Positions 22,122 to 40,923 of a stretch of DNA of 40,923 nt are shown here, piece after piece; the first letter of the stretch is position 1, and each line of letters opens with the position of its first letter. The notes below the pieces were generated by a model that saw nothing but the letters and a program-made list of their open reading frames with translations, made no database searches and was not told the origin of the DNA. Source of the DNA: a virus. Both the position numbers and the translations under genes were made by a program. The stretch is from positions 1-40,923 of the IMG/VR virus record IMGVR_UViG_3300037993_000262. One strand, given 5' to 3'.

Positions 22122-22125
22122 ATAA

Positions 22126-22257: not shown

Positions 22258-22277
22258 AGTATGCTTCCGCCATAACT

Positions 22278-22352: not shown

Positions 22353-22356
22353 AGAA

Positions 22357-22465: not shown

Positions 22466-22472
22466 GCTTGAG

Positions 22473-22541: not shown

Positions 22542-22549
22542 CCCTAAGA

Positions 22550-22626: not shown

Positions 22627-22633
22627 TCAAACC

Positions 22634-22676
22634 ATACGCTACACCGCATATCTGTTGCTAATACGCTGTAGCGTAT
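22634..22676 (-). other. Spacer hairpin between CAU tRNAs
   Basis: ATACGCTACA (22634-22643) pairs perfectly over 10 bases with TGTAGCGTAT (22667-22676), loop 23 bases. No T-run, so not a terminator; likely a processing structure. Confidence 0.5.
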
Positions 22677-22679
22677 CAA

Positions 22680-22755
22680 GGTTGCGGAGGCTGGATTTGA
22701 ACCAGCGGCCTGTTGGTTATGAGCCAACCGAGCTACCTGACTGCTCTACTCCGCT
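22680..22755 (-). tRNA. tRNA-Met-type (CAU) with A1.A72 mismatch
   Basis: Acceptor AGCGGAG/CTCCGCA (first pair A.A), D-stem GAGC/GCTC, anticodon stem GTTGG/CCAAC with loop CTCATAA, T-stem GCTGG/CCAGC. The 3' end is ACCT rather than ACCA, so CCA would need to be completed by an enzyme. Confidence 0.8.
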
Positions 22756-22761
22756 ATAACT

Positions 22762-22838
22762 TGGTGCCTCCCCAGAGAGTCGAACTCTGTTCTCCCGCTC
22801 TTCAGGCGGGCGCTATGCACCGCATCAGCTAAAGAGGC
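22762..22838 (-). tRNA. tRNA-Phe(GAA)
   Basis: Acceptor GCCTCTT/GGGAGGC (two G.U), D-stem GCTG/TAGC, anticodon stem CCCGC/GCGGG with loop CTGAAGA (GAA), T-stem CAGAG/CTCTG, A73, encoded CCA. Confidence 0.9.
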
Positions 22839-22869
22839 AAAACCAAACTTTCAAACTTCTCGGCATTAT

Positions 22870-22906
22870 CTTGAGAGCACCTTAAGTCCTATAATACGCT
22901 CTCAAG
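22870..22906 (-). other. Spacer hairpin between tRNA-Lys and tRNA-Phe
   Basis: CTTGAGAGC (22870-22878) pairs perfectly with GCTCTCAAG (22898-22906), loop 19 bases. Same style as other array spacers. Confidence 0.5.
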
Positions 22907-22913
22907 AGCATCT

Positions 22914-22989
22914 TGGTGGGTCGGGAGGGAATCGAACCCTCAACCTTGGGCTTAAGAGGCCCCTGCTCTGCCAGTTAAGCTACCGACCC
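22914..22989 (-). tRNA. tRNA-Lys(CUU)
   Basis: Acceptor GGGTCGG/CCGACCC, D-stem GCTT/GAGC, anticodon loop CTCTTAA (CUU) on stem GGGGC/GCCCA (27.43 G.A mismatch), T-stem GAGGG/CCCTC, A73, encoded CCA. Confidence 0.88.
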
Positions 22990-22994
22990 AAATT

Positions 22995-23071
22995 TGGTAC
23001 CGCCGAGAGGACTCGAACCTCCAACTCCTCGGGCAAGAGCCGAGTACTCTGTCCAGTTGAGTTACGGCGGC
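22995..23071 (-). tRNA. Second tRNA with CUU anticodon (Lys)
   Basis: Acceptor GCCGCCG/CGGCGGT, D-stem ACTC/GAGT, anticodon stem CTCGG/CCGAG with loop CTCTTGC (CUU), T-stem GGAGG/CCTCT, A73, encoded CCA. G37 and C38 differ from the first Lys(CUU); identity Lys is by anticodon only. Confidence 0.8.
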
Positions 23072-23077
23072 ACATCT

Positions 23078-23157
23078 TGGTGGAGCCGGTGGATTGGGTG
23101 CCCACGACCGTCCGCTTAAAAGGCGGCTACGCTTAACCACATCTGCGTCACGACTCC
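23078..23157 (-). tRNA. tRNA-Lys(UUU) with aberrant T-loop
   Basis: Acceptor GGAGTCG/CGGCTCC, D-stem ACGC/GCGT, anticodon loop CTTTTAA (UUU) on GCCGC/GCGGA, A73, encoded CCA. The T-stem GTGGG/TCCAC is intact but the loop is CACCCAA, lacking the universal TTC (54-56) and A58. Confidence 0.8.
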
Positions 23158-23163
23158 ATATTT

Positions 23164-23238
23164 TGGCTCTGGAGGAGGGAATCGAACCCCCAACCATTCG
23201 GTTAACAGCCGAACGCTCTACCGTTGAGCTACTCCAGA
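23164..23238 (-). tRNA. tRNA-Asn(GUU)
   Basis: Acceptor TCTGGAG/CTCCAGA, D-stem GCTC/GAGC, anticodon stem TTCGG/CCGAA with loop CTGTTAA (GUU), T-stem GGGGG/CCCTC, G73, encoded CCA. Canonical. Confidence 0.92.
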
Positions 23239-23254
23239 AGAAACTGTCTCCTTC

Positions 23255-23378
23255 TCAGGCGGATATATAGACGAGTTGTTATGACACATCGTCCCTGAGT
23301 GCTCGCCTGAACCATACAACGGCTGGTGCTGTTTGCCCTCACAACCTGCCAACCAAGGGCGACCCTCATCACACCAGC
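23255..23378 (-). ncRNA. Structured spacer between the two tRNA-Asn genes
   Basis: TCAGGCG (23255-23261) pairs with CGCCTGA (23304-23310), enclosing GACGA/TCGTC; GCTGGTG (23322-23328) pairs with CACCAGC (23372-23378), enclosing GCCCT/AGGGC. A further AGCGA/TCGCT hairpin follows. The 165-base gap has no ORF of note. Confidence 0.45.
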
Positions 23379-23403
23379 GACACTCGCTCATACGACCTCA
23401 AAC

Positions 23404-23477
23404 TGGCTGGGACGGCAGGACTCGAACCTGCATTCTCCGGGTAACAGCCGGGCATCTTACCATTGGATGACATCCCA
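23404..23477 (-). tRNA. tRNA-Asn(GUU), second copy
   Basis: Acceptor TGGGATG/CGTCCCA, anticodon loop CTGTTAC (GUU) on CCCGG/CCGGA (27.43 C.A), T-stem GCAGG/CCTGC, G73, encoded CCA. D-stem ATCC/AGAT has one mismatch. Sequence differs strongly from the first tRNA-Asn, so it is not a recent duplicate. Confidence 0.82.
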
Positions 23478-23489
23478 ACAAACAGTGAC

Positions 23490-23620
23490 CAGTGACAACC
23501 GCCCTCCGCAGGGGCGGGAAGTGCATAGCTGGGGACCTCGCCTGTTCCGAAGAACTGGTGCCCTGCTTACCACCGAACCCATCAGACTCGCCATCCCTTT
23601 GGGTGCGTCACGTGGTCTCA
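23490..23620 (-). ncRNA. Structured spacer with UUCG-capped hairpin
   Basis: On the minus strand: ACCAC...GTGGT enclosing ACCCA/TGGGT, a GTTC-TTCG-GAAC hairpin (stable UUCG tetraloop) near 23550, and CCGCCC/GGGCGG. The UUCG loop forms only on the minus transcript, matching array direction. Identity unknown. Confidence 0.45.
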
Positions 23621-23624
23621 ATCT

Positions 23625-23704
23625 TGGAAGCCCCGAGGGGATTTGAACCCACTGACCTTCGGTTTCGTAGACCGCTGCTCTAGTCCGGGCTGAGCTACGG
23701 GGCC
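23625..23704 (-). tRNA. tRNA-Arg(ACG)
   Basis: Acceptor GGCCCCG/CGGGGCT, D-stem GCTC/GAGC, anticodon loop CTACGAA (ACG, presumably inosine-modified) on GCGGT/ACCGA, T73, encoded CCA. T-stem GTGGG/CCCCT has a mismatch. Its 5' end overlaps the last ten bases of the HNH gene. Confidence 0.85.
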
Positions 23705-24111
23705 TCAATCTTGTACCAACCTCTTTCTTTCGCTGTTTTACGACGGTGACAGTTGGCGCATCGCACGTCGCACTTAACTATCTCAGCCTTTATCGTCTTT
23801 AATGATGCCTTCATTTGTGTCATTAAAGTTGAAACGGCTGCTAATTTCTTTTCTCCTTCCCGATGGTCAAACTCAAGGACTATCGGGTCAGATTCTCCAC
23901 AGTCGATACAGGGGTGAGTCATCAAATACTGTAAGACCCACTCTATGGCTTCTTTCCTATACCTTGCACCATTCCGTTTCGCTTTTTCAACATACGAGGT
24001 CTTATTCCTCTCGTAGTTTTGCTTATTGTAGCCTCGCTGGCATTCGAGGCAGTATGGTGCTGACCGGTGCTCTTTTTCCTTACCACATTTGTAACAGTTC
24101 TTAGACCTCAT
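23695..24111 (-). CDS. HNH homing endonuclease (small)
   Basis: 138 residues. N-terminal zinc ribbon CYKCGKEKEH...CLECQRGY and HNH core CIDCGESDPIVLEFDHREG...EIVKCDVRCANCHRRKT. Same subfamily as 20234-20578, with an added ribbon. No Shine-Dalgarno; the start is preceded by GGACTTCGTAGTCC, a hairpin-forming sequence, then TTTAGT-ATG, shared with two other HNH genes. The stop codon lies in tRNA-Arg(ACG). Confidence 0.88.
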   Translation of the reverse strand: MRSKNCYKCGKEKEHRSAPYCLECQRGYNKQNYERNKTSYVEKAKRNGARYRKEAIEWVLQYLMTHPCIDCGESDPIVLEFDHREGEKKLAAVSTLMTQMKASLKTIKAEIVKCDVRCANCHRRKTAKERGWYKIEAP

Positions 24112-24150
24112 ACTAAAGGACTACGAAGTCCAATTACTGTTTTCAAATCT

Positions 24151-24226
24151 TGGAACCCCTGACAGGATTCGGACCTGCGACCATCCGGGTCGAAACCGGG
24201 CGCTCTGTCCACTGAGCTACAGGGGC
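24151..24226 (-). tRNA. tRNA-Arg(UCG)
   Basis: Acceptor GCCCCTG/CAGGGGT, D-stem GCTC/GAGC, anticodon loop TTTCGAC (UCG) on CCCGG/CCGGA (27.43 C.A), T-stem GCAGG/CCTGT with loop TCCGAAT, T73, encoded CCA. Confidence 0.85.
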
Positions 24227-24232
24227 CTAATC

Positions 24233-24310
24233 TGGAAGTCCCGGTCGGATTTTAACCGACGACCTTCTCCTTCGGAGGGAGTTGCTCTATACGGGCTGAG
24301 CTACGGGACC
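24233..24310 (-). tRNA. tRNA-Arg(CCG)
   Basis: Acceptor GGTCCCG/CGGGACT, D-stem GCTC/GAGC, anticodon loop CTCCGAA (CCG) on ACTCC/GGAGA (27.43 A.A), T-stem GTCGG/CCGAC with loop TTAAAAT (A instead of C56), T73, encoded CCA. Confidence 0.82.
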
Positions 24311-24320
24311 ATATATTGGG

Positions 24321-24386
24321 GTGAATGACGAAGTGGGCTGCCCCCGCCCCCTCGGACCAGACCGAGTACCCTGTGGGGTTCACTCA
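24321..24386 (-). other. Spacer structure between tRNA-His and tRNA-Arg
   Basis: GTGAA near 24321 pairs with TTCAC near 24379; inside, CTCGG-ACCAGA-CCGAG forms a hairpin. GC-rich, no gene. Confidence 0.35.
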
Positions 24387-24393
24387 CCAAACT

Positions 24394-24468
24394 TGGGGTG
24401 ACTGAGGGGAATCGAACCCCCGTATCCTGATTCACAGTCAGGCACTCTGCCACTGAGTTACAGTCACC
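24394..24468 (-). tRNA. tRNA-His(GUG)
   Basis: Acceptor GTGACTG/CAGTCAC with an extra G-1 opposite C73, the His identity pair; D-stem ACTC/GAGT; anticodon stem CCTGA/TCAGG with loop CTGTGAA (GUG); T-stem GGGGG/CCCCT; encoded CCA. First (most upstream) tRNA of the leftward array. Confidence 0.92.
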
Positions 24469-30042: not shown

Positions 30043-30638
30043 GGGTTCCTCCCCGCTTTTTGTTTTATCCACTCTTTTGCGGCTTGTTCGGCGGAAAACT
30101 TTGATAGCCACTTGTTCTCACCCCGGACGTTCACTTCTACACCATCCACCTTGGCATAGTAGTGAATACCTCTCGGCCACTGTGTGACTTCAATCTTATT
30201 GCACTCAGGAAGCTCAAATCCTTTAACCATGTGGGTTTCTAAAAGTTCCAACCCCTGCATGTGAGCGAAGTAAGAGCCATTGTGATGGATGTAGACATGT
30301 CCATGTTTCTGAATGCAATCAAGCATGGATTTGATGATGCCATCGTCTACCCGGCAGGCGGACTCGAACAATGATTGCTCGTGTGCCATCCCATGGTAAC
30401 AATAGACCGCCGCCAGCCCATTAACGAAGTGAGAGGGGCCGTCCGTGGACATTTCGCTCGGACCAACCTTGTTGGCGTCCTGATAGCGTTTTACTTCCGC
30501 AAAGGCCGCTCGGACCTGTTTGGGACGGCGAGCCTTCCAATAGGCGTTGAGTTCATCCTCCGACCGGATATCGAACCTCCAGCCGTAGTCCAACCCCATG
30601 GCAGGCCACGTTACGTGAGATACTCTCACTTCGCTCAT
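30039..30638 (-). CDS. Unknown protein
   Basis: 199 residues; AAAGGAAC before the ATG. Mixed alpha/beta with HVYIHHNGSYFAHMQGLELLE in the middle. No recognised motif. Coupled by ATGA to the downstream membrane protein. Confidence 0.6.
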   Translation of the reverse strand: MSEVRVSHVTWPAMGLDYGWRFDIRSEDELNAYWKARRPKQVRAAFAEVKRYQDANKVGPSEMSTDGPSHFVNGLAAVYCYHGMAHEQSLFESACRVDDGIIKSMLDCIQKHGHVYIHHNGSYFAHMQGLELLETHMVKGFELPECNKIEVTQWPRGIHYYAKVDGVEVNVRGENKWLSKFSAEQAAKEWIKQKAGRNP

Positions 30639-30648
30639 GTTCCTTTCT

Positions 30649-31278
30649 TTATTTGACCCAAATCATGTCCGAAGTTACTTCCACCTGGCTTACGTCGTCG
30701 TCCACTGTTCCGTACTCCACGGTGTAGACGAGATTCCCATCTTCAACCTTTGCTTTGAAGGTCACACCGTTGTTGTATGTCATGCAATCTTTGGAGTTGT
30801 AAAAACGCACGGCGGTTCCCTCGGGAATCAGCTTTTCTACTTTAGCTAATTGGGACCTTAGAACTGGTTGGAGGGCGGGAGCAAAAGCAGGACCGGGCAT
30901 ACACTCGGTGCGAGCAAAATCATAAACTTCTCCGTCTGCCATTACGCCCGTTATTACACCAGCGCTGATGCCGTAGCTTTGCCGGTCATCGTTCATAACC
31001 ACTTGGTCACCGTCATCAAGGACTTGACAAGCCTCTTCCCGTTCTTTCTTGCAGACCGGGCATTGACAAAGCCCATCCTCTGTGGCTTCGTCATCTACAG
31101 AACCGGTGTCACAGGAAAAGTCAGGGGTGGGTTTTCTGAACCAACCGATGAGGGCATCTCCAACGCTTTGGAAATAATGGAGTTTGCCGGGAAACCAGCG
31201 GACAACGGATGCCGCCACGGTGAGTTCCAATAAGGCATAAGACAGACCACCAAGCAGAAAGACAAGAACGGTGCGCAT
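30649..31278 (-). CDS. Membrane-anchored protein with zinc motif
   Basis: 209 residues from ATG 31278 (GGAGGATATT upstream). Residues 2-24 form a hydrophobic signal anchor (TVLVFLLGGLSYALLELTVA). A CQCPVCKKE site follows near 85, then a beta-rich domain (~100-209) that could be SH3-like. Possibly first in its transcript: a TGGTATACT motif lies just upstream. Confidence 0.6.
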   Translation of the reverse strand: MRTVLVFLLGGLSYALLELTVAASVVRWFPGKLHYFQSVGDALIGWFRKPTPDFSCDTGSVDDEATEDGLCQCPVCKKEREEACQVLDDGDQVVMNDDRQSYGISAGVITGVMADGEVYDFARTECMPGPAFAPALQPVLRSQLAKVEKLIPEGTAVRFYNSKDCMTYNNGVTFKAKVEDGNLVYTVEYGTVDDDVSQVEVTSDMIWVK

Positions 31279-31294
31279 AATATCCTCCACTCTC

Positions 31295-31303
31295 AGTATA
31301 CCA
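31295..31303 (-). promoter_or_regulatory. Extended -10-like motif TGGTATACT
   Basis: Sits 17 bases upstream of the start of the gene at 31278, in a 47-base gap inside the otherwise continuous leftward operon. Possible internal promoter. Confidence 0.4.
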
Positions 31304-31325
31304 CAGTGAGAGGGATTTTTGAGGA

Positions 31326-31716
31326 TTATTCTTCGAGCGGCGGGTCCCACCCGTCGTGCGCCATGGGGAACTCGAACACCGGGTTCTCCGTCTTGCAGTA
31401 GGGTACAAACCCCCCAGTCATCGGCCTAATGGCGTAATACACGTTCTCCGTGTAGGTGTAGCGGAACTTTGCCCGTACGGACCAGAAAACCTTCCTTGTT
31501 GGCGTCCCACCGGGCTAGTTTGCCGTTTCTTCCCCACCCATAGTAGTAAGCGCCATGCTCAAGCTTCTCCAGAGGTATTGGCTCCGTGGCATCCTTGGTG
31601 GGGTCGGGGCAGTGGTCATCCCACCAGCCCCTTCCCTCCGAGACTACCTTAATTTTCCCGCATCGGATACATACCTGGTCTTGTTTTCTCTCTTCTTCAT
31701 CCGTTGGGAATGCCAT
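31326..31716 (-). pseudogene. Frameshifted paralogue of the next gene
   Basis: From ATG 31716 (GGAGG upstream) the frame reads CIRCGK..., LEHGAYYYGWGRNGKLARW, then near 31485 loses similarity and stops at 31426. Reading one base ahead from about 31486 continues AKFRYTYTENVYYAI...TENPVFEFPM to TAA at 31326. That continuation matches the paralogue at 31697-31984 (TKFYDTYPECIGYWV...LDNPRFTIPL), so one base has been gained or lost. Either a real frameshift mutation, a +1 recoding site, or a sequence error. Confidence 0.65.
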
Positions 31717-31984
31717 ACACAAATCCTCCACTGGCGTTAAATTCTTCCTCCGTCAAGGGAATGGTGAATCGAGGGTTATCCAACTTGGCAAAAGGTTGAA
31801 ACTCATCAAATCGAATCTCACCCGGCTTCGCATCTACCCAGTAACCGATGCACTCCGGGTAAGTGTCGTAAAACTTGGTGCGCCAATGGATGAAGAATCC
31901 TTTCTCATTCCACCGGGCAATGCTGGCGTTGCGGCAAGTGCCAGTGTAATAGGCACCGTGTTCGAGTTGGTCTTTAGGCAGCAA
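31697..31984 (-). CDS. Unknown protein, intact paralogue
   Basis: 95 residues from TTG 31984, chosen because GGTGGAG precedes it by five bases and the paralogue aligns from here (LEHGAYYTGTCRNASIARW). A longer GTG-started frame (32056) runs through the upstream gene's end. Short beta-rich protein; no family recognised. Tandem duplicate of the gene at 31326-31716. Confidence 0.6.
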   Translation of the reverse strand: MLPKDQLEHGAYYTGTCRNASIARWNEKGFFIHWRTKFYDTYPECIGYWVDAKPGEIRFDEFQPFAKLDNPRFTIPLTEEEFNASGGFVYGIPNG

Positions 31985-32016
31985 TGATTCTCCACCTAAT
32001 AATACTAGATTTTCCG

Positions 32017-32376
32017 CTATTTCCGCAGAGCTTCCAAATACCAATGGGGAGGCCACTCAAGTTCAGGGTCTAGGTAACCGGGGCGCATCTCGAAGCGGTA
32101 TTGGTAGAGCTTGTTGACCGCTTTCATGTGACGGTCCCATGCACGGGCATCGGGATAGCACCAGTGTTGCTTGCCATCACGCTTCCAGTTGTAGACATCG
32201 TTCCAGTGGCATTCACGGAAGTGGGGGAATATAATATCGGTTTCGGGGTCTTTGAGAGCTTGGTGGACCCAAGCATTTTGAGAACGACGGACACCTCGGT
32301 GAGCTATCCGTTTGTCGTCCTTGCAGGAGCCGACACCACAGACAGCCACGTAGGGTTTGCGGTAAGAGCGGGACAT
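32017..32376 (-). CDS. Unknown basic protein
   Basis: 119 residues with AAGGAGG upstream. N-terminus SRSYRKPYVAVCGVGSCKDDKRIAHRGVRR is strongly basic with two Cys, typical of nucleic-acid-binding proteins; a similar SRSYRK start occurs in small phage proteins of unknown function. Aromatic/His-rich middle. Confidence 0.6.
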   Translation of the reverse strand: MSRSYRKPYVAVCGVGSCKDDKRIAHRGVRRSQNAWVHQALKDPETDIIFPHFRECHWNDVYNWKRDGKQHWCYPDARAWDRHMKAVNKLYQYRFEMRPGYLDPELEWPPHWYLEALRK

Positions 32377-32461
32377 TAAGCACCTCCTTTAGGTAGCCTA
32401 ATGCACAGCCCCTCGTTCATCTTTAAAAGTAACATCCATACTAAGGACTCCGGTAGGTGGT

Positions 32462-33382
32462 TTACTTGGGTCCTTTTTCGTTCATACGATTTATCTCCTC
32501 CTTCATAAACCGCAGTTGTTGCAGAGTTTTTTCTGGTATTCCTTTGCATCCAGGATTGATGTTTTTTACCAAAGTTTGAAAAGCCACTGCCAAGTTTGCT
32601 TGGGCGGTCTTGATGATTAAGTACGGCCATATCCTACGAAGAATATCTTCAGCTTTTGAACTCGTCCATATCATCGTATAGCAGTCCTTGTGGATTTTCC
32701 TTCGCCCTTTTCTTCTAACCGTAGTCGCTCCCCATCTTTTCTCAAGGTAATTTTTGAGGGTTTCTGAAGTATTATAGACCCTTATGGATAGACGGTAAGC
32801 CTCCCGGCGCTTTGTTTCCCTTTTTACGATTGAAATGGTCCCTTCTCCATCTACGAGGGCAGCGAGATGAGAAGCACTTTGTACGGGGTCATTAAGGTCT
32901 GGAAACTCGTTCCTTTGTATTCCCCAGGTTTCTAGCCACTCTATCTCTTGAGAACTAAGCGGACATGGAGACGGATTTCCCGGCTTCCAAGGGTGGATAT
33001 GGTCGGGGAGATTATTAAGTTCTGGGGGCCTCTGTCCGGTGTATACCCATATAGATGTTTGTAGGGCGTTAAGCAGGTTCCACATAGCTTGTGAAAGATG
33101 GGGTTCACTTCTGTCACCCTCTAAATGAGCGGTTATATGCCTTATAGCGCTATCAAGCAAATCCGCAATCTTCATCCCGTTCTCCCAATTACGGGTGTCT
33201 CCATTACCTGTTCCACCTGAGAGAAGGTCTCGTTGTTTGTTACCTATTTCATAGATGCGAGAAACCATCTTAACGGCTGTCCAGGGCATCCAGTGAAATG
33301 CTCCCTTGCCTATACGACTGTCTCGTTGTGCTCCAGTGGAATATATAGTCTCTGCTGTGGCACTTTTTTTGAATTGTTCCAT
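32462..33382 (-). CDS. DUF5664-like dNTP diphosphohydrolase fused to a LAGLIDADG endonuclease
   Basis: 306 residues. Residues ~25-112 (GAFHWMPW...RNWENGMKIADLLDSAIRHITAHLEGD...AMWNLL) match the phage dATP/dGTP diphosphohydrolase-type (DUF5664, MazG-like) pattern: RNWExG, RHIxAxxEGE-like, and the ...xxAxWN helix. From 173, LAALVDGEGTISI is a LAGLIDADG motif followed by a single endonuclease domain (SIRVYNTSETLKNYL, WTSSKAEDILRRIWPYL). No stop or intein splice residues separate the two, so it looks like a C-terminal fusion. Start ATG 33382 lacks a ribosome site. Confidence 0.7.
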   Translation of the reverse strand: MEQFKKSATAETIYSTGAQRDSRIGKGAFHWMPWTAVKMVSRIYEIGNKQRDLLSGGTGNGDTRNWENGMKIADLLDSAIRHITAHLEGDRSEPHLSQAMWNLLNALQTSIWVYTGQRPPELNNLPDHIHPWKPGNPSPCPLSSQEIEWLETWGIQRNEFPDLNDPVQSASHLAALVDGEGTISIVKRETKRREAYRLSIRVYNTSETLKNYLEKRWGATTVRRKGRRKIHKDCYTMIWTSSKAEDILRRIWPYLIIKTAQANLAVAFQTLVKNINPGCKGIPEKTLQQLRFMKEEINRMNEKGPK

Positions 33383-33398
33383 GTTTATAGATACTGCT

Positions 33399-33596
33399 TT
33401 ATTCTGATTTCTTCTCAGCTTTCCCTATGGCTTCTTTCACCTGTGGGAGGTCTTTTACCCACATGAGCCGGGGGTCATCCAGCATTTCCTTGGTGATGAC
33501 GATGGGAGCCGGGGGCTGCATTGCTGAAAGCTGGATGATGGACTTAACCTGTTCCCGATGCATCAGGCACAGGTACAGAGCCAGCGCTCGAAGCAT
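33399..33596 (-). CDS. Small unknown protein
   Basis: 65 residues from ATG 33596 (GGAGAG upstream; GTG 33611 alternative). Helical N-terminus with a conserved-looking PPAPIVITKEMLDDP middle. No family recognised. Confidence 0.5.
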   Translation of the reverse strand: MLRALALYLCLMHREQVKSIIQLSAMQPPAPIVITKEMLDDPRLMWVKDLPQVKEAIGKAEKKSE

Positions 33597-33646
33597 TTTG
33601 GAACTCTCCACTCACGAAGATGATACAGATTACAACCAAGGCAGTT

Positions 33647-33919
33647 TCACTTAGCATTTCTCTTCCCCCTTGCTTTGAATTCTTGAATCTGACCCACCAT
33701 CTTCATGTGGTTCCAGAGAGACACCTGTAATGCCTCTATCAGATGGTAAGTCTGTAAAGACTCCCACTGCATCCCGCCAAGCTCCCATGGCTTGGCTTCC
33801 ACCCCCTTGGGGTTGGCGACGGAGACGCTTTGCACACAGAATTTCTTCCAGTTTGCTAAGACTTTGGCGAAGTCAATCAACGTCTCCATGTTTAAGGCGT
33901 CATGTTTGCGGGTTGCCAT
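33647..33919 (-). CDS. Small unknown protein
   Basis: 90 residues; AAGGAG six bases upstream, TAATG overlap with the preceding gene. Mostly helical, basic C-terminus (EFKARGKRNAK). No family recognised. Confidence 0.55.
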   Translation of the reverse strand: MATRKHDALNMETLIDFAKVLANWKKFCVQSVSVANPKGVEAKPWELGGMQWESLQTYHLIEALQVSLWNHMKMVGQIQEFKARGKRNAK

Positions 33920-34122
33920 TAACTCTCCTTGGGTACCGGAACTAGCCCCGACCCGTTACAGGTCGGACAAACTTTGTGCTTGGTCGGTTCGGGAGCCAAT
34001 AGTCGGGGGTCATAGCTGCCGCATCCGGCGCAAACGTAGCACCCGCATTCCGGGCAAGTAATATGCCGGTATCCATCACAGCTACCGGTTGGCGCACAAT
34101 GCTTACATGCAGGCTTGTCCAT
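33919..34122 (-). CDS. Small zinc-finger protein
   Basis: 67 residues from ATG 34122 (GGGAGG upstream). CKHC, CPECGCYVCAGCG and CPTCNGSG, the last like a DnaJ Cys-rich repeat, give at least two zinc sites. Function unknown. Confidence 0.65.
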   Translation of the reverse strand: MDKPACKHCAPTGSCDGYRHITCPECGCYVCAGCGSYDPRLLAPEPTKHKVCPTCNGSGLVPVPKES

Positions 34123-34165
34123 AGGACCTCCCATATAAAATACTCAGTTTTATGGGAAAATTAAA

Positions 34166-35014
34166 TCATATTTGACAATGTTGGCATCTTAAAACTGAAA
34201 TTCCTCGATTTATATGCCAACGTTGATGGTTTCCTAAGTTACTTTTACCTAGGTTCTTTGAAGCTTCCAAATGTTTAGGAGTTAAAAGGTATGGTCTTTT
34301 TATCCTTTTTGGCATTAATATACGGATGGGCATCACAGGTTTAATGCCTTGTTCTTTCTCTCTTTTGCGTCTAAGGAGTTGTGCATTTGACCTATTAGTA
34401 TAACATTGTGGGGATTGAATAGCTCTACGAAGACTTTTTAACCTTTTTATTTCACTTTCTTCGTTTTTTGGTTGTTTAGAATAACACAAATGTGAACAGT
34501 ATATTTTTTCTTTCCTTCCAAATGAAACAGAAAATGATTTACCACACACCGGACAGACCTTGTTTATCTTTGGTCTACTATTTAATTTCTTGGTTTCACT
34601 AATTTTTATATTAGAAAGTCTTTTAGTTTCAGAATTTCTAGGGTCTCTGTGCCAAGCCATTTTCATTTTGCTTTGATTTTGCTTCCATTCCTCAGAATGC
34701 GGCCCTGTAAATCCCTCTCCTCCCCGGCATATGTTGTACCCACACTCAGGGTCCTGCGACCGCAGGAACTTAATAAAGTCTCTTTCGGTCTGGTCAAGCT
34801 CTGTTTTATTCTGGATATCGGAACGTAGGGCGTAAATAGACCAGAGAGAAGACTGTGGATATTTTCTCATTGCATTGAAAAGGTGAGAACTTCCATTGTG
34901 CTGATGCCGAGCAGCGGATAACTTGGTTTGAAGATACTTTCTAAGATTGTTTCCCTTATGCTGACCGACATAATATTTGCCGGTCTTATGATTAACGATA
35001 AGATAAATGAACAT
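34166..35014 (-). CDS. GIY-YIG homing endonuclease
   Basis: 282 residues. FIYLIVNHKTGKYYVGQHKG at 2-21 is the GIY-YIG core variant (YLI-YVG), with ELDQTERDFIKFL carrying the Glu and GYNICRGGEG closing the domain. A zinc motif CPVCGKSFSVSFGRKEKIYCSHLC follows and a basic C-terminal DNA-binding region ends in CQHCQI. Markedly AT-rich against its neighbours. Confidence 0.88.
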   Translation of the reverse strand: MFIYLIVNHKTGKYYVGQHKGNNLRKYLQTKLSAARHQHNGSSHLFNAMRKYPQSSLWSIYALRSDIQNKTELDQTERDFIKFLRSQDPECGYNICRGGEGFTGPHSEEWKQNQSKMKMAWHRDPRNSETKRLSNIKISETKKLNSRPKINKVCPVCGKSFSVSFGRKEKIYCSHLCYSKQPKNEESEIKRLKSLRRAIQSPQCYTNRSNAQLLRRKREKEQGIKPVMPIRILMPKRIKRPYLLTPKHLEASKNLGKSNLGNHQRWHINRGISVLRCQHCQI

Positions 35015-35059
35015 TTTGAACTCTACTCCTATAAATACTTTGGAAAGTTCATTTTTCCA

Positions 35060-35335
35060 TTATCTTAAAATATAGGCGAGAGTTAATTCATCATGGTCAA
35101 GGATGCGGTAGCTTTGCAGTTCGGCATCCTCGGGGACCACTCCCTCTTGCTTGAGGGTCTCGAAGGGGGGTAAAAAGCACTCTATCACGGGAAACACCCT
35201 CATGTGGGGCATGAGAATGCACACCTCTTCCATGTAGGGTGCCCCAATGCCGGTGTATCCTGATAAGAGAAAGCTTCTCAAGTGCTTGGCTTCCTTGGTC
35301 AAATAGCGAAGCTGCACTTTGACGTGATTGGGCAT
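35060..35335 (-). CDS. Unknown protein
   Basis: 91 residues from ATG 35335 (start uncertain; no clear ribosome site; the frame is open up to 35434 within the upstream gene). Alpha/beta composition (VCILMPHMRVFPVIECFLPP). No family recognised. Confidence 0.5.
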   Translation of the reverse strand: MPNHVKVQLRYLTKEAKHLRSFLLSGYTGIGAPYMEEVCILMPHMRVFPVIECFLPPFETLKQEGVVPEDAELQSYRILDHDELTLAYILR

Positions 35336-35369
35336 CACGGAAGCGATGCCAATTTTAGTATCCGGGATT

Positions 35370-35996
35370 TCAGCGGCGGCGGTCAAGGAATTTCTCCACA
35401 ACACTGGCAATGTTTTGTACCGGAGGAGTTCCACCCGTGGGAGGAGCCTGTGGAGTCGTGGGGGTCGGGGGAGCCACGGCGGATTGACCCCTCTCCACTC
35501 GCTTATTGATTGTCATGGGTTGGCCGGTCTTCTGCTGGGTCAAATATTCCCGCAGATGAATGTCTCCCTCGGCAAGGACGATGTTTTTGAGACCGCTGAA
35601 CATTAGCCGGGTTCGGCTTCCGGCTCCGGTGCTGAAAGAGGTAACCCGGACCCCTTCTCCCTCTTTTCCAAGGTAGGCGAAATCCATTTGATAGACATCA
35701 AGTCCGTGCCTGCCCAACAGAGTGTAGATGGTGTCGGAGTTAAGGTGGATAGCGATGGCAACCTCGTTCAGGGCAATCTCTTCCTCTCGAAGGGTGGTTT
35801 CACCGTCTTCGTCCCAGTACTCCTCCAAAAGGTCAATGATGGATTCCTTGGCGGCACTGATGACACCCCGGTCAGAGGTCATGCCGTACAGGAAAATCTC
35901 CATCTCCCACACTTTTCCGTGACTGAGGCTCTCCATTATCCTCATTCCCTCGTAAAGGGTAGCCAGCCGGTCTTCGTCAATCCACATGAAATCCAT
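35370..35996 (-). CDS. Unknown protein with Pro/Thr-rich tail
   Basis: 208 residues; AGGGGGAAATT before the ATG. Globular first 155 residues, then a disordered Pro/Thr/Gln linker (PPTPTTPQAPPTGGTPP) and a short C-terminal helix (ASVVEKFLDRRR), an arrangement used for tethering interactions. No family recognised. Confidence 0.6.
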   Translation of the reverse strand: MDFMWIDEDRLATLYEGMRIMESLSHGKVWEMEIFLYGMTSDRGVISAAKESIIDLLEEYWDEDGETTLREEEIALNEVAIAIHLNSDTIYTLLGRHGLDVYQMDFAYLGKEGEGVRVTSFSTGAGSRTRLMFSGLKNIVLAEGDIHLREYLTQQKTGQPMTINKRVERGQSAVAPPTPTTPQAPPTGGTPPVQNIASVVEKFLDRRR

Positions 35997-36027
35997 AATT
36001 TCCCCCTAATAAGGGGTCCAAAATCTG

Positions 36028-36267
36028 TTATTTGGGTGGGTGTTTTCCGAAAAGGCTTGAAAACAAATCACCGAAGTCTCCCCCATCTTTTCCGAATATC
36101 TGGTCTACAAACCGCTCACCAGCGGTCTGAGGCTGCGGGGGACTGCCGGGCGCTGGGGCTAAAGATACGGAAAGCTCCGCAACCTCGGCTATGCGGATAG
36201 TCACCGTCTCTCCCGAGGCTATCTTTCGGAGAGTCATCTCGCTAAGTCTCACTTGCGCTTTAGTCAA
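36028..36267 (-). CDS. Small unknown protein
   Basis: 79 residues from TTG 36267, supported by GGAGGTGGGT. N-terminal half beta-like, Pro-rich middle (APAPGSPPQPQ), C-terminal Gly/Phe helix (FGDLFSSLFGKH). No family recognised. Confidence 0.55.
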   Translation of the reverse strand: MTKAQVRLSEMTLRKIASGETVTIRIAEVAELSVSLAPAPGSPPQPQTAGERFVDQIFGKDGGDFGDLFSSLFGKHPPK

Positions 36268-36279
36268 AACCCACCTCCG

Positions 36280-36747
36280 TTAAGGTTTCCTCACATAATC
36301 TTCCGCCATCCCGATTTCGGTCAAGCCGAGGTTACACTCACCGAGGAATTTCCTCGTAGCATTGAAGGAAGCTGTCCAGCGGGTCAGAGCGTCGGCGGAT
36401 GGGTTGGGGGCCACAAAGTGGAAGATGCCTGCCTGTGCCATCTGCACGGCACAACGGATGCAACTCATGAAAGGCCACATGTAAAGAACGCACCCGTTTA
36501 CCGGTCTATTGGCGAAAAGCAGGGCGTTGATTTCGCAGTGAACCACGTGGTCATATTTGTACGTCCGGTCAGCGTAAAGCTCGGGGTCATCCTTGGCTCC
36601 CTGCGGAAAGCCGTTGAATCCCACACCCACGACAGACTTGTTCGGGCGCACGATTACCGCCCCCGTCTTAGTACTTGTATCTTTTGACCATGAGGCTATG
36701 TGTGCTGCTAGTTCTAAAAATCGCCTATCCCATTTTTCGTTGAACAT
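36280..36747 (-). CDS. dCMP deaminase-like (cytidine/deoxycytidylate deaminase family)
   Basis: 155 residues; AAAGGAG before the ATG. HCE at 70-72 (VVHCEINALL) and PFMSCIRCA at 92-100 give the zinc-binding His, catalytic Glu and Cys-x-x-Cys of the family; the usual PC before the second Cys pair is SC here. TGAVIV near 28-33 and GFNGFP fit dCMP deaminases, which make dUMP for thymidylate synthase; ThyX lies 0.7 kb upstream in the same operon. The HNH gene inserted upstream overlaps its start by 23 bases. Confidence 0.85.
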   Translation of the reverse strand: MFNEKWDRRFLELAAHIASWSKDTSTKTGAVIVRPNKSVVGVGFNGFPQGAKDDPELYADRTYKYDHVVHCEINALLFANRPVNGCVLYMWPFMSCIRCAVQMAQAGIFHFVAPNPSADALTRWTASFNATRKFLGECNLGLTEIGMAEDYVRKP

Positions 36748-37378
36748 GCCACTCCTTTATGCTCTGGCTAATCTTTCTTCTGCTTTTAGGACTATGACGC
36801 CGAGAACATCTTTCTAATACTTGTTCGGGAGACAATTTTCTTCCCCTTAATGCCGAAGATATTCTGAGTTTTTCGTCCTTGGTCCGAGATTTCCCAAACT
36901 GGGGGTTACGTGCTCCCCCTTGGGCTTCCCGCATTTTCTCTTTGGTCTTGTCACTATGATGTCGCCCCTTCCAATGAGTAGGAACAGAGGAGTATCTTTC
37001 CCGCTGTGCTGTGGACATATTCTCTTTTGCTCTATCAGAAAACCTTCTGCCTGTGTTTAGGATACTTATAGAAATGGCGGCTTGCTGCCTTATATACTCG
37101 TACTCCCTAGAATTTATATGAAGCTCACAGTTCTTGCTATGTAGAAATCTATGCAAAGCCAGAATCATTTTACATCGGTTTCTACCTTCGGTAAACTTGG
37201 CTAGAAGACGGTGAGCAATGAAGTGCTGCTTTCCAGTTAGCCACACCAAGTTGTCTTTCCGAGAGCTACCACCCAAGGATTGGGGGATTATGTGATGAGA
37301 TTCATAATATCTACTTAGCTCAAGAGGGCTGTTCTTAGCTTTATCTATAAGCTGGTAGTAGATTTTCTGGTAATTCAT
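36725..37378 (-). CDS. HNH homing endonuclease with NUMOD3 repeats
   Basis: 217 residues; AGAAGG before the ATG. ESHHIIPQSLGGSSRKDNLVWLTGKQHFIAH at ~27-57 is an HNH core of the phage type (I-HmuI relatives and similar). C-terminal half is a series of NUMOD3-like repeats (RERYSSVPTHWKGRHHSDKT, REAQGGARNPQFGKSRTKDE, SSALRGRKLSPEQ) for DNA binding. Inserted between ThyX and dCMP deaminase, a usual type of target for phage homing genes. Confidence 0.88.
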   Translation of the reverse strand: MNYQKIYYQLIDKAKNSPLELSRYYESHHIIPQSLGGSSRKDNLVWLTGKQHFIAHRLLAKFTEGRNRCKMILALHRFLHSKNCELHINSREYEYIRQQAAISISILNTGRRFSDRAKENMSTAQRERYSSVPTHWKGRHHSDKTKEKMREAQGGARNPQFGKSRTKDEKLRISSALRGRKLSPEQVLERCSRRHSPKSRRKISQSIKEWHVQRKMG

Positions 37379-37431
37379 TGCTATACCTTCTGTATAAGGA
37401 TTGCATAGTCAAATGTGCTGGGGTCTTTAGA

Positions 37432-38085
37432 CTAACTGGTCTCCTTTGGTCGCTCCGGCATGATTATTGGTATCAAGTCATCAAAAATCACGGGAATGAC
37501 TCTCTGGAACTCCTTGAGTAGTGGTACAGCAATCTCTTTCATCTGAACGTGCGCCCCGGCGTTGCAGGCCCGCTTCTTGAAGAAGTTTCGCCAACTTGTG
37601 AGGTTCAGGCTCATGATGATTTCGGTCTTGAGACTGTTGGGAAGGACCGACCGAGCAATCTCCGGGCGTGCCCCCAAGCGGCGAAGCTCATTGTAAGCTT
37701 TTTCCGCTTCGTTCATGGCATAGGTCCAGACATCGAACTGCGCCGAGGTCATGAACTGTTTGATGTCGATGACTTGAATCTGCCCCGCCTTGGTATAATC
37801 GCAATAGCGGGTAGACTCTTGCAGATAAGCGGCGATGCGGTGCCGGACTATTTCATGGCTTATGCCCCGGTCACAGACTACCCGCACGGTAATCATATGG
37901 TGGTCGGCAATGCCCTCATGTTTGAGGGTATGGAGAAGTTTCTTCACGAACGCCTTCGTGCCATCCATGTCCGTGGTCTTGGCTTCGGACTTGTAACAGT
38001 TGCGAGCGTACTTCTCTATCTGACGGAGAATCTTCTCGCCGTCGTAGTCTTCCTCAATGTGGACCTCTGCCAGTCGGATAATCAA
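37432..38085 (-). CDS. thyX: Flavin-dependent thymidylate synthase ThyX
   Basis: 217 residues from TTG 38085 overlapping the preceding stop (TTGA), with GGAAGAAA upstream. RHRIAAYLQESTRY at 81-94 is the ThyX signature RHRxxSxxxxSxRY (first Ser replaced by Ala). LTSWRNFFKKR and QMKEIAVPLLKEF near the C-terminus match the family's substrate-binding helices. ThyX makes dTMP from dUMP with FAD and methylene-tetrahydrofolate, fitting the neighbouring dCMP deaminase. Confidence 0.92.
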   Translation of the reverse strand: MIIRLAEVHIEEDYDGEKILRQIEKYARNCYKSEAKTTDMDGTKAFVKKLLHTLKHEGIADHHMITVRVVCDRGISHEIVRHRIAAYLQESTRYCDYTKAGQIQVIDIKQFMTSAQFDVWTYAMNEAEKAYNELRRLGARPEIARSVLPNSLKTEIIMSLNLTSWRNFFKKRACNAGAHVQMKEIAVPLLKEFQRVIPVIFDDLIPIIMPERPKETS

Positions 38086-38399
38086 AACGTTTCTTCCGTG
38101 GGTAGTTGTTTGGCTACTTCCTCCAGCGTGGCGGCAATCTTGTCTACAAACTCATCGTGGGTGTAGGTCTTCGGTTGTTCCACCTCATCCCCCCGCCCCC
38201 GGATATAAGTTCCGTCACCCCGGTGGAGCATACTGATGTCTGGACCAAAGCTGTCGCAATCTTTATTGCTGCATCCGTCCCCACCGCTACAAGTGAATGT
38301 AAATTCCTGCGGGTAGTTCAAGGCGATAACTTGGAAGTCCGCCTCGGGGTTAACCCGCTTTAGACGTTCAATTAACTCTTTGACCTTGATATTTTTCAT
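38082..38399 (-). CDS. Unknown protein
   Basis: 105 residues; weak ribosome site (CGGTGA). Starts KNIKVKELIERLKRVNPEADFQV, a helix and strand pattern seen in small phage proteins, with a Cys cluster CSGGDGCSNKDC in the middle that might bind metal. Coupled to thyX. Confidence 0.6.
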   Translation of the reverse strand: MKNIKVKELIERLKRVNPEADFQVIALNYPQEFTFTCSGGDGCSNKDCDSFGPDISMLHRGDGTYIRGRGDEVEQPKTYTHDEFVDKIAATLEEVAKQLPTEETF

Positions 38400-38440
38400 A
38401 TGTCACCGTTCGCCTACTTATCTGGCGAGTCGTCGTTCAC

Positions 38441-39313
38441 TTACTTGGGGAGTAAGTCCTTTCGCATACTGATGTTATGCCCGCCACAGAAGAGACAATC
38501 TCCATCCCCGTTGGTGTCAGTTCCTACACCGCACTTGGGACATGGGACACCGTCATGTATGGGAAAGGTTTCTTTTTCCTTCTTCGCCTTCACCGCATCG
38601 GGCATCACGATTTCATAGTGAAGGTCAGACTGGGAGTTCAACCAACGGATTGCCTTATCAGCATGTTCAAGAAGAATCTTGACTCGGGCACGATTGAAGG
38701 TCGGGTAGATGACCATCTCGCCGCTGAATCCCTGTAGGTGCCGTTTCTGGTCGCAGGTAGTGTCTCCGTAGACTTCAACGTGAATGAAGCCGTCCGCAGC
38801 AACCGCCTCCGGGGGAATTTTTAGTGGACCCGAGGGCGTTTCAAAGGCCATGAAGTACATGTGCATAGGGTCCCGGAATTCTATATCGGCGTGCGGACAC
38901 ACCCGAACTTCCTTCTCAAAATTCACCGTGAAATCAAAGCTCTTGGTGATAACCTTGGGTGGATACCGTTTGACAAACCACTTGGGGAACTTCGGATGTT
39001 GTTTCAACATATCCCACCACGTCTCTGGCAGCGCCAGAGTTTCTGTGACCGTTTTGGTTCCGGTCTCATGTTTGTTGCTATCCCGGAGAATCCACGCCGT
39101 CAGGTTCATCACCATGGCTCGCATGGTGTGTTCCAACCGGGTATGCAATTTCAGGGTGTTCTTGACCTGCGGCATTTTGTTGAGGTCTTCAATAAGCCGG
39201 TCATTCTCTTCATCACCCTGTACAAACACACGGCTAACTCCGACGTGCAGGGGTTCCAGCATGTACTTCGTCTCCCGATACTCAGGAGGAAACTTCCCCA
39301 TCCGGTCGAACAT
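38441..39313 (-). CDS. Unknown protein with C-terminal zinc ribbon
   Basis: 290 residues; AAGGAG eight bases upstream. N-terminal ~220 residues unassigned (includes ETWWDMLKQHPKFPKWFVKRY); a C-terminal zinc ribbon CPKCGVGTDTNGDGDCLFCGGH. Start overlaps the Nudix gene end by 32 bases. Confidence 0.65.
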   Translation of the reverse strand: MFDRMGKFPPEYRETKYMLEPLHVGVSRVFVQGDEENDRLIEDLNKMPQVKNTLKLHTRLEHTMRAMVMNLTAWILRDSNKHETGTKTVTETLALPETWWDMLKQHPKFPKWFVKRYPPKVITKSFDFTVNFEKEVRVCPHADIEFRDPMHMYFMAFETPSGPLKIPPEAVAADGFIHVEVYGDTTCDQKRHLQGFSGEMVIYPTFNRARVKILLEHADKAIRWLNSQSDLHYEIVMPDAVKAKKEKETFPIHDGVPCPKCGVGTDTNGDGDCLFCGGHNISMRKDLLPK

Positions 39314-39815
39314 TATAAATCTCCTTAACGTTAAAGCTGTCTGCCCGCTCGCCCCGCTGGAATGAGAGTGCCATGGCGATAATCCAGTTGGCGTTGTGAA
39401 CTAAGTCGGTGTAGTCTTGTAGGTCCCGTACCACGTGGATGCCCACGGTTTCATCAGTTTGAGTTGCTACCTTGTCATAGGCGGGACTGACGGTCCAGAA
39501 GAACCACACTCGTGCTTCGGGGAAGTCCAAGGTGCAGATGGTTTTCCAATCGGTGTGCCAAACCCCTGTCTCCTCGAAAAATTCCCGGCTCATGGCACCG
39601 AGGGGGTCTTCATCTTTCTCTACCTTCCCGCCCACTCCGTTGAGCAACCCATATTGCCATGATGGCCGGTTTTTGCGAATGAGAACAATCTTGGAGAAAT
39701 CGGGGCTGAACATATAGCCGACGACATACCACTTCTTTGTGACCAACTCTTGCAGTTCACCAATCAAGTTGTTGGTACGCTTGATGGAAAAGTCCAACTC
39801 TGTGGTTAAGCCCAT
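39282..39815 (-). CDS. Nudix hydrolase
   Basis: 177 residues. The Nudix box is at 62-85: GG-KVEKDE...REFFEETGV, matching G-x5-E-x7-R-E-U-x-E-E-x-G-U. WYVVGYMFSPDF and WFFWTVSP flank it. Nudix enzymes hydrolyse NDP-X compounds such as damaged dNTPs or RNA caps; substrate unknown. No ribosome site precedes ATG 39815, and a TGGTATTAT motif lies only six bases before it, so the mRNA may be leaderless or a later start is used. Confidence 0.88.
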   Translation of the reverse strand: MGLTTELDFSIKRTNNLIGELQELVTKKWYVVGYMFSPDFSKIVLIRKNRPSWQYGLLNGVGGKVEKDEDPLGAMSREFFEETGVWHTDWKTICTLDFPEARVWFFWTVSPAYDKVATQTDETVGIHVVRDLQDYTDLVHNANWIIAMALSFQRGERADSFNVKEIYNVRPDGEVSS

Positions 39816-39820
39816 GGTAC

Positions 39821-39829
39821 ATAATACCA
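39821..39829 (-). promoter_or_regulatory. Extended -10-like motif TGGTATTAT upstream of the Nudix gene
   Basis: Identical to the motifs at 25198 and 40187. A transcript from here would start about at the Nudix ATG. Confidence 0.45.
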
Positions 39830-39833
39830 GTTT

Positions 39834-39962
39834 TTACCACATTATTGGCGAACCAAAAATGTGATGACCGCCCGGATGCACAGGACAGGAAATGTGGACG
39901 CCCTCGGGTGGAATGACCATCCACAGGGGCTTGTTAAGAGTGCAGCGGGCATCCCTCCACAT
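39834..39962 (-). CDS. Small protein of 42 residues
   Basis: ATG 39962 to TAA 39834. The sequence (PLWMVIPPEGVHISCPVHPGGHHIFGS) is protein-like, with a Cys and three His that might bind metal. No Shine-Dalgarno is visible. It fills the 133-base gap between its neighbours and ends just before the Nudix promoter motif. Confidence 0.45.
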   Translation of the reverse strand: MWRDARCTLNKPLWMVIPPEGVHISCPVHPGGHHIFGSPIMW

Positions 39963-39974
39963 AGCGATAATACG

Positions 39975-40244
39975 TCAAACGCAGCCGACTCTGGTCTGTT
40001 CTTTCCACTCATCCGCCCATTGCGCATAAGCGACGATTTGGGCATCCGTATACATTGGTGGGTAATGTAGGGTAGTGGCAAACATCGTCGCCAACTTACG
40101 AGAGTCTTTATCGTGAACGCTCTGCCCGTGGCTTTTGAGACTATCGAGATACCGGAACATGTCATCGTGTGTAGGAACCATACCCCATAATACCATCTCC
40201 GCCGTAAAGAAAAACCGGTTATAATCCGCAAAAGTGAGTATCAT
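39975..40244 (-). CDS. Small unknown protein, start uncertain
   Basis: 89 residues from ATG 40244, or 68 from ATG 40181, which follows both a TGGTATTAT motif (40187-40195) and a GGGG stretch. Helical, His/Asp-rich (HDDMFRYLDSLKSHGQSVHDKD). First gene of the leftward operon. Confidence 0.5.
   Translation of the reverse strand: MILTFADYNRFFFTAEMVLWGMVPTHDDMFRYLDSLKSHGQSVHDKDSRKLATMFATTLHYPPMYTDAQIVAYAQWADEWKEQTRVGCV
40187..40195 (-). promoter_or_regulatory. Extended -10-like motif TGGTATTAT
   Basis: Third identical copy; would start transcription just ahead of ATG 40181. Confidence 0.4.
40219..40224 (+). promoter_or_regulatory. Possible -10 box (TATAAT) for the vault-like gene
   Basis: Consensus TATAAT about 75 bases upstream of the start at 40300, without a clear -35. 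It lies over the start region of the diverging gene. Confidence 0.35.
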
Positions 40245-40299
40245 CTTGTGATGACCCTTTGTACTCGGGTCTCTACTTTAGAAAACTTGCGGAGGAATC

Positions 40300-40923
40300 A
40301 TGCCAGAGATTCAGGGTCAACTGGTGCTTGCCCAAAACCAGTATGCCTTCATTCAGGACGCCACAAAGGGCACTGTCTCGGTCTATGCCGGGCCGTATGT
40401 CCTCGCTTTGTCAGGCAACGACCGCCCGGTCACCTACAACAAGGAAACCGACACCTTCACCCAAGTCCAGCTTACCGAAGCCATCAAGCAAAACCCGCTG
40501 GTCCCCGAGGGACACTACTTGGTTCTCGAAAATCCCGCCATCGACAACAAGGGAGAGTTGACTTTCCCCAAGGCGGGAAGCAATAATCCCATCAGTTTGG
40601 AAGTCGGACGCAAGATTAACATCCTCGGTCCGGCGACCATGCCGCTCTGGCCCGGACAGGTAGCCCAAGCCATCTCGGGTCACCACCTGCGTTCCAATCA
40701 GTACCTCGTGGTTCGGGTCTACAATGCCGAGCAGGCAAACAAGAACTGCCCGACGTTCCTCAAGTCCACCGGCAAAGACCTCACCCCCGGTCAGCAAATC
40801 GTCATCAAGGGTACCGACGTATCCTTCTTCATCCCGAAGACCGGATTCGAGGTTCTGCCGGACGGCAACAACAACAATGCCTACGTGCGGGAAGCTCTCA
40901 CGTTGGAGTTGCTGGAATACTGC
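40300..40923 (+). CDS. Major-vault-protein-like repeat protein, 3' end outside the window
   Basis: 208 codons, open to the right edge; ATG preceded by GCGGAGG. Residues 9-40 (LAQNQYAFIQDATKGTVSVY-AGPYVL...) align by eye with vault repeats of eukaryotic MVP, whose pattern is LDxNxxIYVQDVKTGKVRAVxGxxYxL. Then PEGHYLVLENP matches MVP PPRHYCTVANP, and PLWPGQV followed about 18 residues later by LVVRVYN matches PLYPGEV...LHLKAL; FFIPKTGFEVL matches YIPRKEVEVV, and LTLELLEYC starts what looks like the next repeat. MVP repeats build the wall of the vault particle. A homologue in a phage would be remarkable; only the N-terminal repeats are visible, so the shoulder and cap domains cannot be checked. 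Confidence 0.7.
   Translation, partial: MPEIQGQLVLAQNQYAFIQDATKGTVSVYAGPYVLALSGNDRPVTYNKETDTFTQVQLTEAIKQNPLVPEGHYLVLENPAIDNKGELTFPKAGSNNPISLEVGRKINILGPATMPLWPGQVAQAISGHHLRSNQYLVVRVYNAEQANKNCPTFLKSTGKDLTPGQQIVIKGTDVSFFIPKTGFEVLPDGNNNNAYVREALTLELLEYC

Follow-up and report, generated by a model that had tools for sequence, protein, structure and literature searches.

The final open reading frame (ORF) of the IMG/VR virus record IMGVR_UViG_3300037993_000262 is almost certainly, judging from sequence matches and a predicted structure of its full-length form, the start of a genuine major vault protein (MVP) homologue of a huge tailed phage. The whole record, referred to here as the window, is exactly 40,923 b long, and its end falls inside the MVP gene, which is represented by 208 codons counted from the ATG at position 40300 on the (+) strand with the right edge open. 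These codons cover roughly three repeats and the beginning of a fourth; the borders of the repeats were set by eye on the sequence and an AlphaFold2 model. The motifs quoted in the original prediction, which proposed a phage-encoded MVP homologue, are present in the 208-residue translation. The fragment alone shows no family match in Pfam or PHROGs, and its single PDB match (E 0.93) was judged to be a chance match; thus, the full gene is needed to verify the recognition of MVP. Close relatives of the MVP in the window are encoded on four IMG/VR contigs. Positions 30300-40923 of the window (10.6 kb) are 99.99% identical to the start of contig L007, where the frame runs on beyond the window edge to give an 810-residue protein.

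The profile matches of the full protein, which the original prediction had set as its test, are significant. Pfam MVP_shoulder matches residues 509-618 (8.2e-22, 77.9 bits, curated cut-off 25), and Vault_3 matches residues 455-498 (2.2e-10, 41 bits, curated cut-off 28.8). The general repeat model, Vault PF01505, scores 16 bits in the homologue L002, below its cut-off of 27, and gives no match in L001. The best phmmer matches in the PDB are MVP chains (3.1e-16, over residues 442-733), and a profile built from 76 homologues finds MVP at 1.2e-36, while the first non-MVP chain has an E-value of 0.77. The best phmmer scores against MVP chains, 61.9 bits (window lineage), 54.1 (another phage), and 50.8 (a bacterium), are too few for ranking closeness to eukaryotes.

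The predicted structure of the full protein, calculated on the 76-sequence alignment, has a mean pLDDT of 78.7 and a pTM of 0.50. The sequence and the model together show the order of parts known from MVP, namely a predicted beta-repeat array followed by an SPFH-like shoulder and a long helix, with no predicted membrane-spanning segment. The N-terminal repeats are antiparallel in the model, the shoulder occupies residues 498-617 (block pLDDT 90-95), and a single long C-terminal cap helix follows at 619-756 (block pLDDT about 52-81). None of the 104 homologues contains a membrane-like segment as defined by a mean hydropathy of at least 1.6 in a 19-residue window. In Foldseek, ranks 1-16 are all MVP (best 1.8e-34), and flotillin and other SPFH proteins come next at 1e-7, so that the vault-repeat fold anticipated from the fragment is borne out by the model. 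In VIA, ten full MVP entries lead at Z 20.6-22.6, and the next entry is prohibitin at Z 12.6; the repeat registers vary, with the first aligned model residues pairing with MVP residues 5 to 136.

The N-terminal half (residues 1-498) was also modelled alone (pLDDT 74.8). Its 13 leading structural matches are all MVP (Z 11.2-15.7), and the first non-MVP match has a Z of 3.2; against the R1-R7 crystal structure 3gnf, 329 residues align with a Z of 15.1 and an rmsd of 5.0. In 11 of the 13 MVP matches, the half from about residues 2-6 to 484-488 covers MVP up to residues 375-379 (R1-R7), and the other two (9bw6 and 9r86) place it in a different register. In the alignment of the 76-homologue profile, phage residues 216-344 and 450 onward pair with MVP 280-409 and 461 onward, which we take to be the last repeats before the shoulder. 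Because the length of the N-terminal half takes up R1-R7 of MVP, the phage protein is modelled with about seven repeats. The further repeats expected beyond the window edge are thus found in the 810-residue protein, which differs in this from canonical MVP, as animal MVP is described with nine (PMC13347060).

The MVP gene in the window lineage is, as codon comparisons indicate, under purifying selection, including its first 205 codons. Between L007 and L008, the whole gene shows a nonsynonymous divergence (dN) of 0.037 and a synonymous divergence (dS) of 0.288, and the ratio of about 0.13 argues for purifying selection on the protein; the first 205 codons give a dN of 0.036 and a dS of 0.342. 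Two more distant gene pairs have dN/dS ratios of 0.20 and 0.21, with dS above 1.

The homologue scans were profile-guided and depend on a conserved peptide, and their counts are therefore lower bounds. MVP homologues were found in at least 47 IMG/VR contigs and in at least 73 genome contigs of bacteria and archaea (35-49% identity, most full length), in agreement with the earlier statement that bacterial homologues exist; a scan of the plasmid collection gave no MVP match. The frame stays open for 726 aa or more at 43 of the 46 IMG/VR loci examined, a count that leaves out the near-duplicate L009. It reaches at least 741 aa at 67 of the 73 genome loci; of the remaining six, two contain a premature stop, and four are cut at the contig end. 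Three GenBank phages carry MVP with 41% identity over the full length: LR756500 (462 kb), LR756501, and LR756503 (735 kb each). Portal_T4 was found in 10 of the 27 MVP records searched, Terminase_6N in 8 of 37, and a sheath match in 3 of 29 (2 over the cut-off). None of the records bearing the portal or Terminase_6N belongs to the window lineage. A 317-kb relative from that lineage, G008, encodes RIIA (4.9e-113), UvsX-like (6.3e-29), and DnaB-like (9.9e-12) proteins and a weak terminase match (3.2e-8) among the 10 of its 80 large ORFs that were scanned. The MVP carriers are phages, as originally predicted, with portal and terminase matches on the named 735-kb and 462-kb records that carry MVP; this evidence is less extensive for the window lineage. 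The MVP gene is absent from 16 other huge phages, including nine portal relatives (LR756502, LR756504, LR745206, three Lak phages, PTm1, PAU, and pT24).

A quick maximum-likelihood tree of 104 proteins, with SH-aLRT support only and an unknown root, places 32 of the 37 viral sequences on one side of a branch (support 97) together with five sequences from contigs of metagenome-assembled genomes (MAGs). The tree leaves out eight near-duplicates, L009, and ORFs under 700 aa, and it includes no eukaryotic MVP. The window lineage lies inside a fully viral group of eight (support 100). The five MAG sequences are L110 (a Lokiarchaeota MAG), L056, L075, L086, and L126, and they may come from phage contigs that were binned into cellular genomes. 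The other viral sequences (L029 with L032, L049, L046, and L016) are placed elsewhere in the tree, and phages therefore probably acquired the MVP gene in more than one event. The tree forces at least seven changes between viral and cellular labels, compared with a mean of 30 after shuffling, and some of the seven are due to the five MAG sequences.

The gene surroundings at the right edge of the window agree with what had been described from the fragment. The MVP gene diverges from the genes to its left, both of which lie on the (-) strand, and its ATG is preceded by a ribosome-binding site that was judged strong (Table 1). Family matches were tested for 89 viral and 102 bacterial neighbours of MVP genes, selected by hand from 137 and 231, respectively. 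NUDIX and NADAR were each found in 2 of the 89 viral neighbours, and no Pfam family occurs in more than two of the 102 bacterial ones. The MVP gene stands alone, without a recurring neighbour family. In the window lineage, a tRNA array on the opposite strand follows MVP; a tRNA array as a general companion of MVP was considered and rejected, as tRNA genes occur in 8 of the 33 viral loci scanned and in none of the other 25. The window contains 19 tRNA genes with homing endonucleases nearby, and 60 tRNA genes were called in G008. Three related phage contigs (L022, L028, and L038) carry a tRNA with a CTA anticodon, called as tRNA-Pyl, near MVP, and TAG may code for an amino acid in these phages.

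Table 1. Positions of the MVP gene, its neighbours, and other features in the window and in other MVP-bearing contigs (prefixed positions refer to the named locus).
Feature	Position	Strand	Basis
MVP homologue, N-terminal 208 codons of about 810	40300..40923	+	ORF list; full gene L007:10001-12433
GGAGG ribosome-binding site, 4 nt 5' of ATG	40291..40295	+	Sequence
89-aa ORF divergent from MVP gene	39975..40244	-	ORF call
NUDIX hydrolase, first identified gene left of MVP	39282..39815	-	Pfam NUDIX 1.8e-8
tRNA genes (19)	18046-24467		
Ro60-like gene	L013:6604-8328		TROVE 7e-41, Ro60 vWA 4e-52
Y-RNA-like RNA	L013:8468-8540		RF01656, 40.2 bits, gathering 38
YrlA-like match	L013:8890-8954		32.3 bits, below gathering 69
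MVP	L013:10001-12490		Homologue
Band_7 (SPFH) protein, directly 3' of MVP	L013:12687-14483		Pfam 2.8e-27
PARP catalytic domain protein, 424 aa (LR756500)	L006:4517-5791		1.6e-21
Macro-domain protein (LR756500)	L006:15680-16456		1.3e-4
ART-PolyVal protein (G008)	L141:845-2491		3e-18
3027-aa protein with weak PARP-like stretch (G008)	L141:2469-11549		
tRNA with CTA anticodon	L022:13477-13552		Called tRNA-Pyl
tRNA with CTA anticodon	L028:9068-9141		Called tRNA-Pyl
tRNA with CTA anticodon	L038:13536-13609		Called tRNA-Pyl

The animal vault has TEP1-like (TROVE), PARP4-like, and small vault RNA partners, and candidate partner families were accordingly counted over whole records. The PARP catalytic domain is present in 7 of the 27 MVP records over the cut-off (11 of 27 at E 1e-3), and TROVE is present in 5 of 27 at either threshold; these 27 records include near-copies of one phage and many fragments. 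In the 16 control huge phages without MVP (the nine portal relatives and seven others), PARP occurs in 1 over the cut-off (2 at E 1e-3) and TROVE in 2 (3 at E 1e-3); a larger set selected by portal from IMG/VR consisted mostly of short contigs and was left out of the comparison. The window lineage (G001-G003 and G008) has no TROVE and shows PARP only below the cut-off, and Rfam finds only tRNAs in the window. TROVE also occurs in 14 of the 50 bacterial MVP genomes searched from the 73 loci (12 over the cut-off), with no background rate to compare. In 3 of the 5 TROVE-bearing records, no more than 10 kb separates TROVE from MVP (P 0.04, with the distance chosen afterwards). The presence of TROVE and PARP in jumbo phages was reported earlier, with no mention of vaults in the main text of that review (PMC7824862). 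Several ADP-ribose-related proteins were also observed: LR756500 encodes a PARP catalytic domain protein some 6 kb away from MVP and on its strand, as well as a Macro-domain protein, and G008 of the window lineage encodes a polyvalent-protein ADP-ribosyltransferase (ART-PolyVal) and a 3027-aa protein, one stretch of which weakly resembles PARP.

The phage MVP is likely, by analogy with its eukaryotic homologue, to form a vault-like closed or half-closed shell. We infer this assembly from the homology and from the finding that animal MVP made in E. coli assembles into particles (PMC9778704). The long helices would bundle into a cap as in the eukaryotic vault, the repeats of dozens of subunits would form the thin wall of a cup, and two cups could join at their N-termini to give a hollow barrel, each half of which would be about two repeats shorter than in the animal vault. 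Such a barrel would need only the MVP gene, would assemble in the cytoplasm of the host bacterium during infection, and might serve as a sequestering compartment that holds a phage ribonucleoprotein (RNP) or enzyme, or traps host or defence factors. Sequestration as the role of the shell is the least certain part of this proposal, and we put it forward tentatively, as somewhat short of an even chance.

Several results weigh against the proposed shell. Only the C-terminal half resembles eukaryotic MVP significantly in sequence, and the repeats are matched via the fold and weak local alignments. The pTM is just 0.50, the model leaves segments 229-249 and 390-427 unresolved, and the pLDDT of the cap helix is only about 52-81. 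With about seven repeats instead of nine, the contacts of the waist and wall are not simply transferable, and the MVP particles made in E. coli differ in shape from native vaults (PMC9778704). No Pfam family is found in more than three of the 89 viral neighbours, and no conserved partner points to a cargo. DUF4062 is found in none of the 27 MVP records, and PARP and TROVE are not significantly enriched over the controls (two-sided Fisher tests, 0.22 and 0.70 over the cut-off, 0.086 and 1.0 at E 1e-3). In addition, the nine portal relatives live without MVP, which is therefore dispensable in that group of phages.

The SPFH-like shoulder raises the question of whether the protein is instead a scaffold of the flotillin, HflK/C, or prohibitin type, that is, an inner-membrane dome enlarged by repeats and not a free vault. 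The resemblance to prohibitin in VIA and to flotillin in Foldseek fits such a dome, as does the separate Band_7 protein encoded directly downstream of MVP in L013. However, the MVP matches far exceed the SPFH matches in both sequence and fold, the repeat half scores Z 11-16 against MVP and at most 3.2 against SPFH proteins, and the membrane-like segment expected of a dome is missing from all 104 homologues; we therefore consider the dome rather unlikely. We judge equally improbable a role as a nucleotide sponge, in which the shoulder pocket would soak up NAD-derived immune signals or keep NAD+ from defence NADases. NAD+, ADP, and ADP-ribose are ligands of the shoulder in human vaults, and the NADase of TEP1 is related to one that acts against phages (PMC13174449). 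ADP-ribose-related genes also lie near MVP, including NUDIX in the window, Macro and PARP in LR756500, and NADAR among the viral neighbours. Against this role, the difference in PARP from the controls is not significant, and the MVP records lack DUF4062.

Internal proteins are numerous in phages with genomes above 300 kb, and MVP could accordingly be a virion part or an ejected internal protein instead of an intracellular compartment. This is very unlikely, as no structural gene family is present among the 25 families shown for the 89 viral neighbours (51 matched), the left neighbours point away from the gene and the tRNA array comes after it in the window lineage, and relatives with a similar portal do without MVP. 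That the ORF is a cellular gene on misassigned bacterial DNA would agree with the 35-49% identical homologues on prokaryotic genome contigs, but it is contradicted for the 735-kb and 462-kb huge phages, whose named records carry MVP together with portal and terminase. The 317-kb window relative with its RIIA, UvsX-like, and weak terminase-like matches also speaks against it, and 32 of the 37 members of the tree group holding the window lineage are viral, which leaves this explanation a negligible chance.

A broader form of the vault-like shell is suggested by L013 (IMGVR_UViG_3300005533_000001), which shares its phage MVP subclade with the window. On one strand of L013:6604-14483, within 8 kb, Ro60 is followed by a Y-RNA-like RNA, a YrlA-like match, MVP, and a Band_7 protein, with Ro60, the Y-RNA-like RNA, and MVP packed within 6 kb. 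The RNA matches RF01656, a nematode small-RNA family that is presumably one of the stem-bulge RNAs. Nematode stem-bulge RNAs are reported to be homologous to Y RNAs (PMC4726728). The match folds barely better than shuffled sequences (z -0.93), and the surroundings of the L032 and G023 TROVE genes gave no Y-RNA-like match. The gene row of L013, the proximity of TROVE to MVP in three of five records, and the TROVE and vault proteins of Borg elements are the basis for proposing that huge phages build a reduced vault RNP, in which an MVP shell would combine with Ro60/TROVE and Y RNA (PARP in other lineages) as an RNA-handling or RNA-hiding compartment in infection. We regard this as unlikely, though a little less so than the dome or the sponge. 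If true, the link of MVP with TROVE and PARP would be older than eukaryotes and present in phages.

The MVP family, its bacterial homologues, and a predicted Borg vault protein are known already. A phage-encoded form with about seven repeats was not found among the papers listed by the literature searches, judged by title and the start of the abstract; supplements were outside this search, and an earlier mention is possible. The word 'vault' is absent from the main text of a huge-phage paper (PMC7162821) and of jumbo-phage reviews (PMC7824862 and PMC13282480). The phage nucleus and the vesicle are known compartments of jumbo phages (PMC13282480), and a phage vault could be a new kind of protein compartment beside them. 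A phage vault protein under selection is also a one-gene system, in which gene loss could be tied to an infection phenotype.

Among known systems, SPFH proteins (flotillin, prohibitin, HflK/C, and stomatin) share the shoulder fold and the following helix with the phage MVP, which differs from them in having no membrane anchor and a repeat half that scores no higher than Z 3.2 against SPFH. In BFVD, the top structural match from a virus is A0A3G5A4K1 (802 aa) of the Klosneuvirus Harvfovirus, a giant virus of eukaryotes (E 3.6e-14, 913 columns); it has only 12% identity and is annotated as a prohibitin domain protein, and it may be an unrecognised viral MVP. A predicted vault protein also occurs in some Borg elements, which are giant extrachromosomal elements of an archaeon (PMC12660748), and all Borgs carry TEP1-like TROVE proteins that their authors liken to vault or Ro particles (PMC9605863). 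Borgs differ in being archaeal and not tailed phages, and the likeness is one of published description. The prokaryotic MVP-like proteins (Myxococcota, Bacteroidota including a Saprospira MAG, Rifleibacteriota, Spirochaetota, and others) share 35-49% identity with the phage form and have a similar length, and they therefore probably have the same repeat number, whereas nearly all cellular sequences lie apart from the 32 grouped viral sequences in the tree. Eukaryotic MVP (rat 4HL8 and 4V60, human 9BW5), which forms the 78-mer vault from two half shells of 39-fold symmetry, has the same order of parts, a similar length, and a sequence match over residues 442-733. The phage form differs in its predicted seven or so repeats instead of nine, in repeats too diverged for PF01505, and in being phage-encoded. 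Vaults are often described as eukaryote-only (PMC9778704 and PMC11855390) and their function is still called unclear (PMC13347060), and a phage MVP bears on the origin of the eukaryotic vault.
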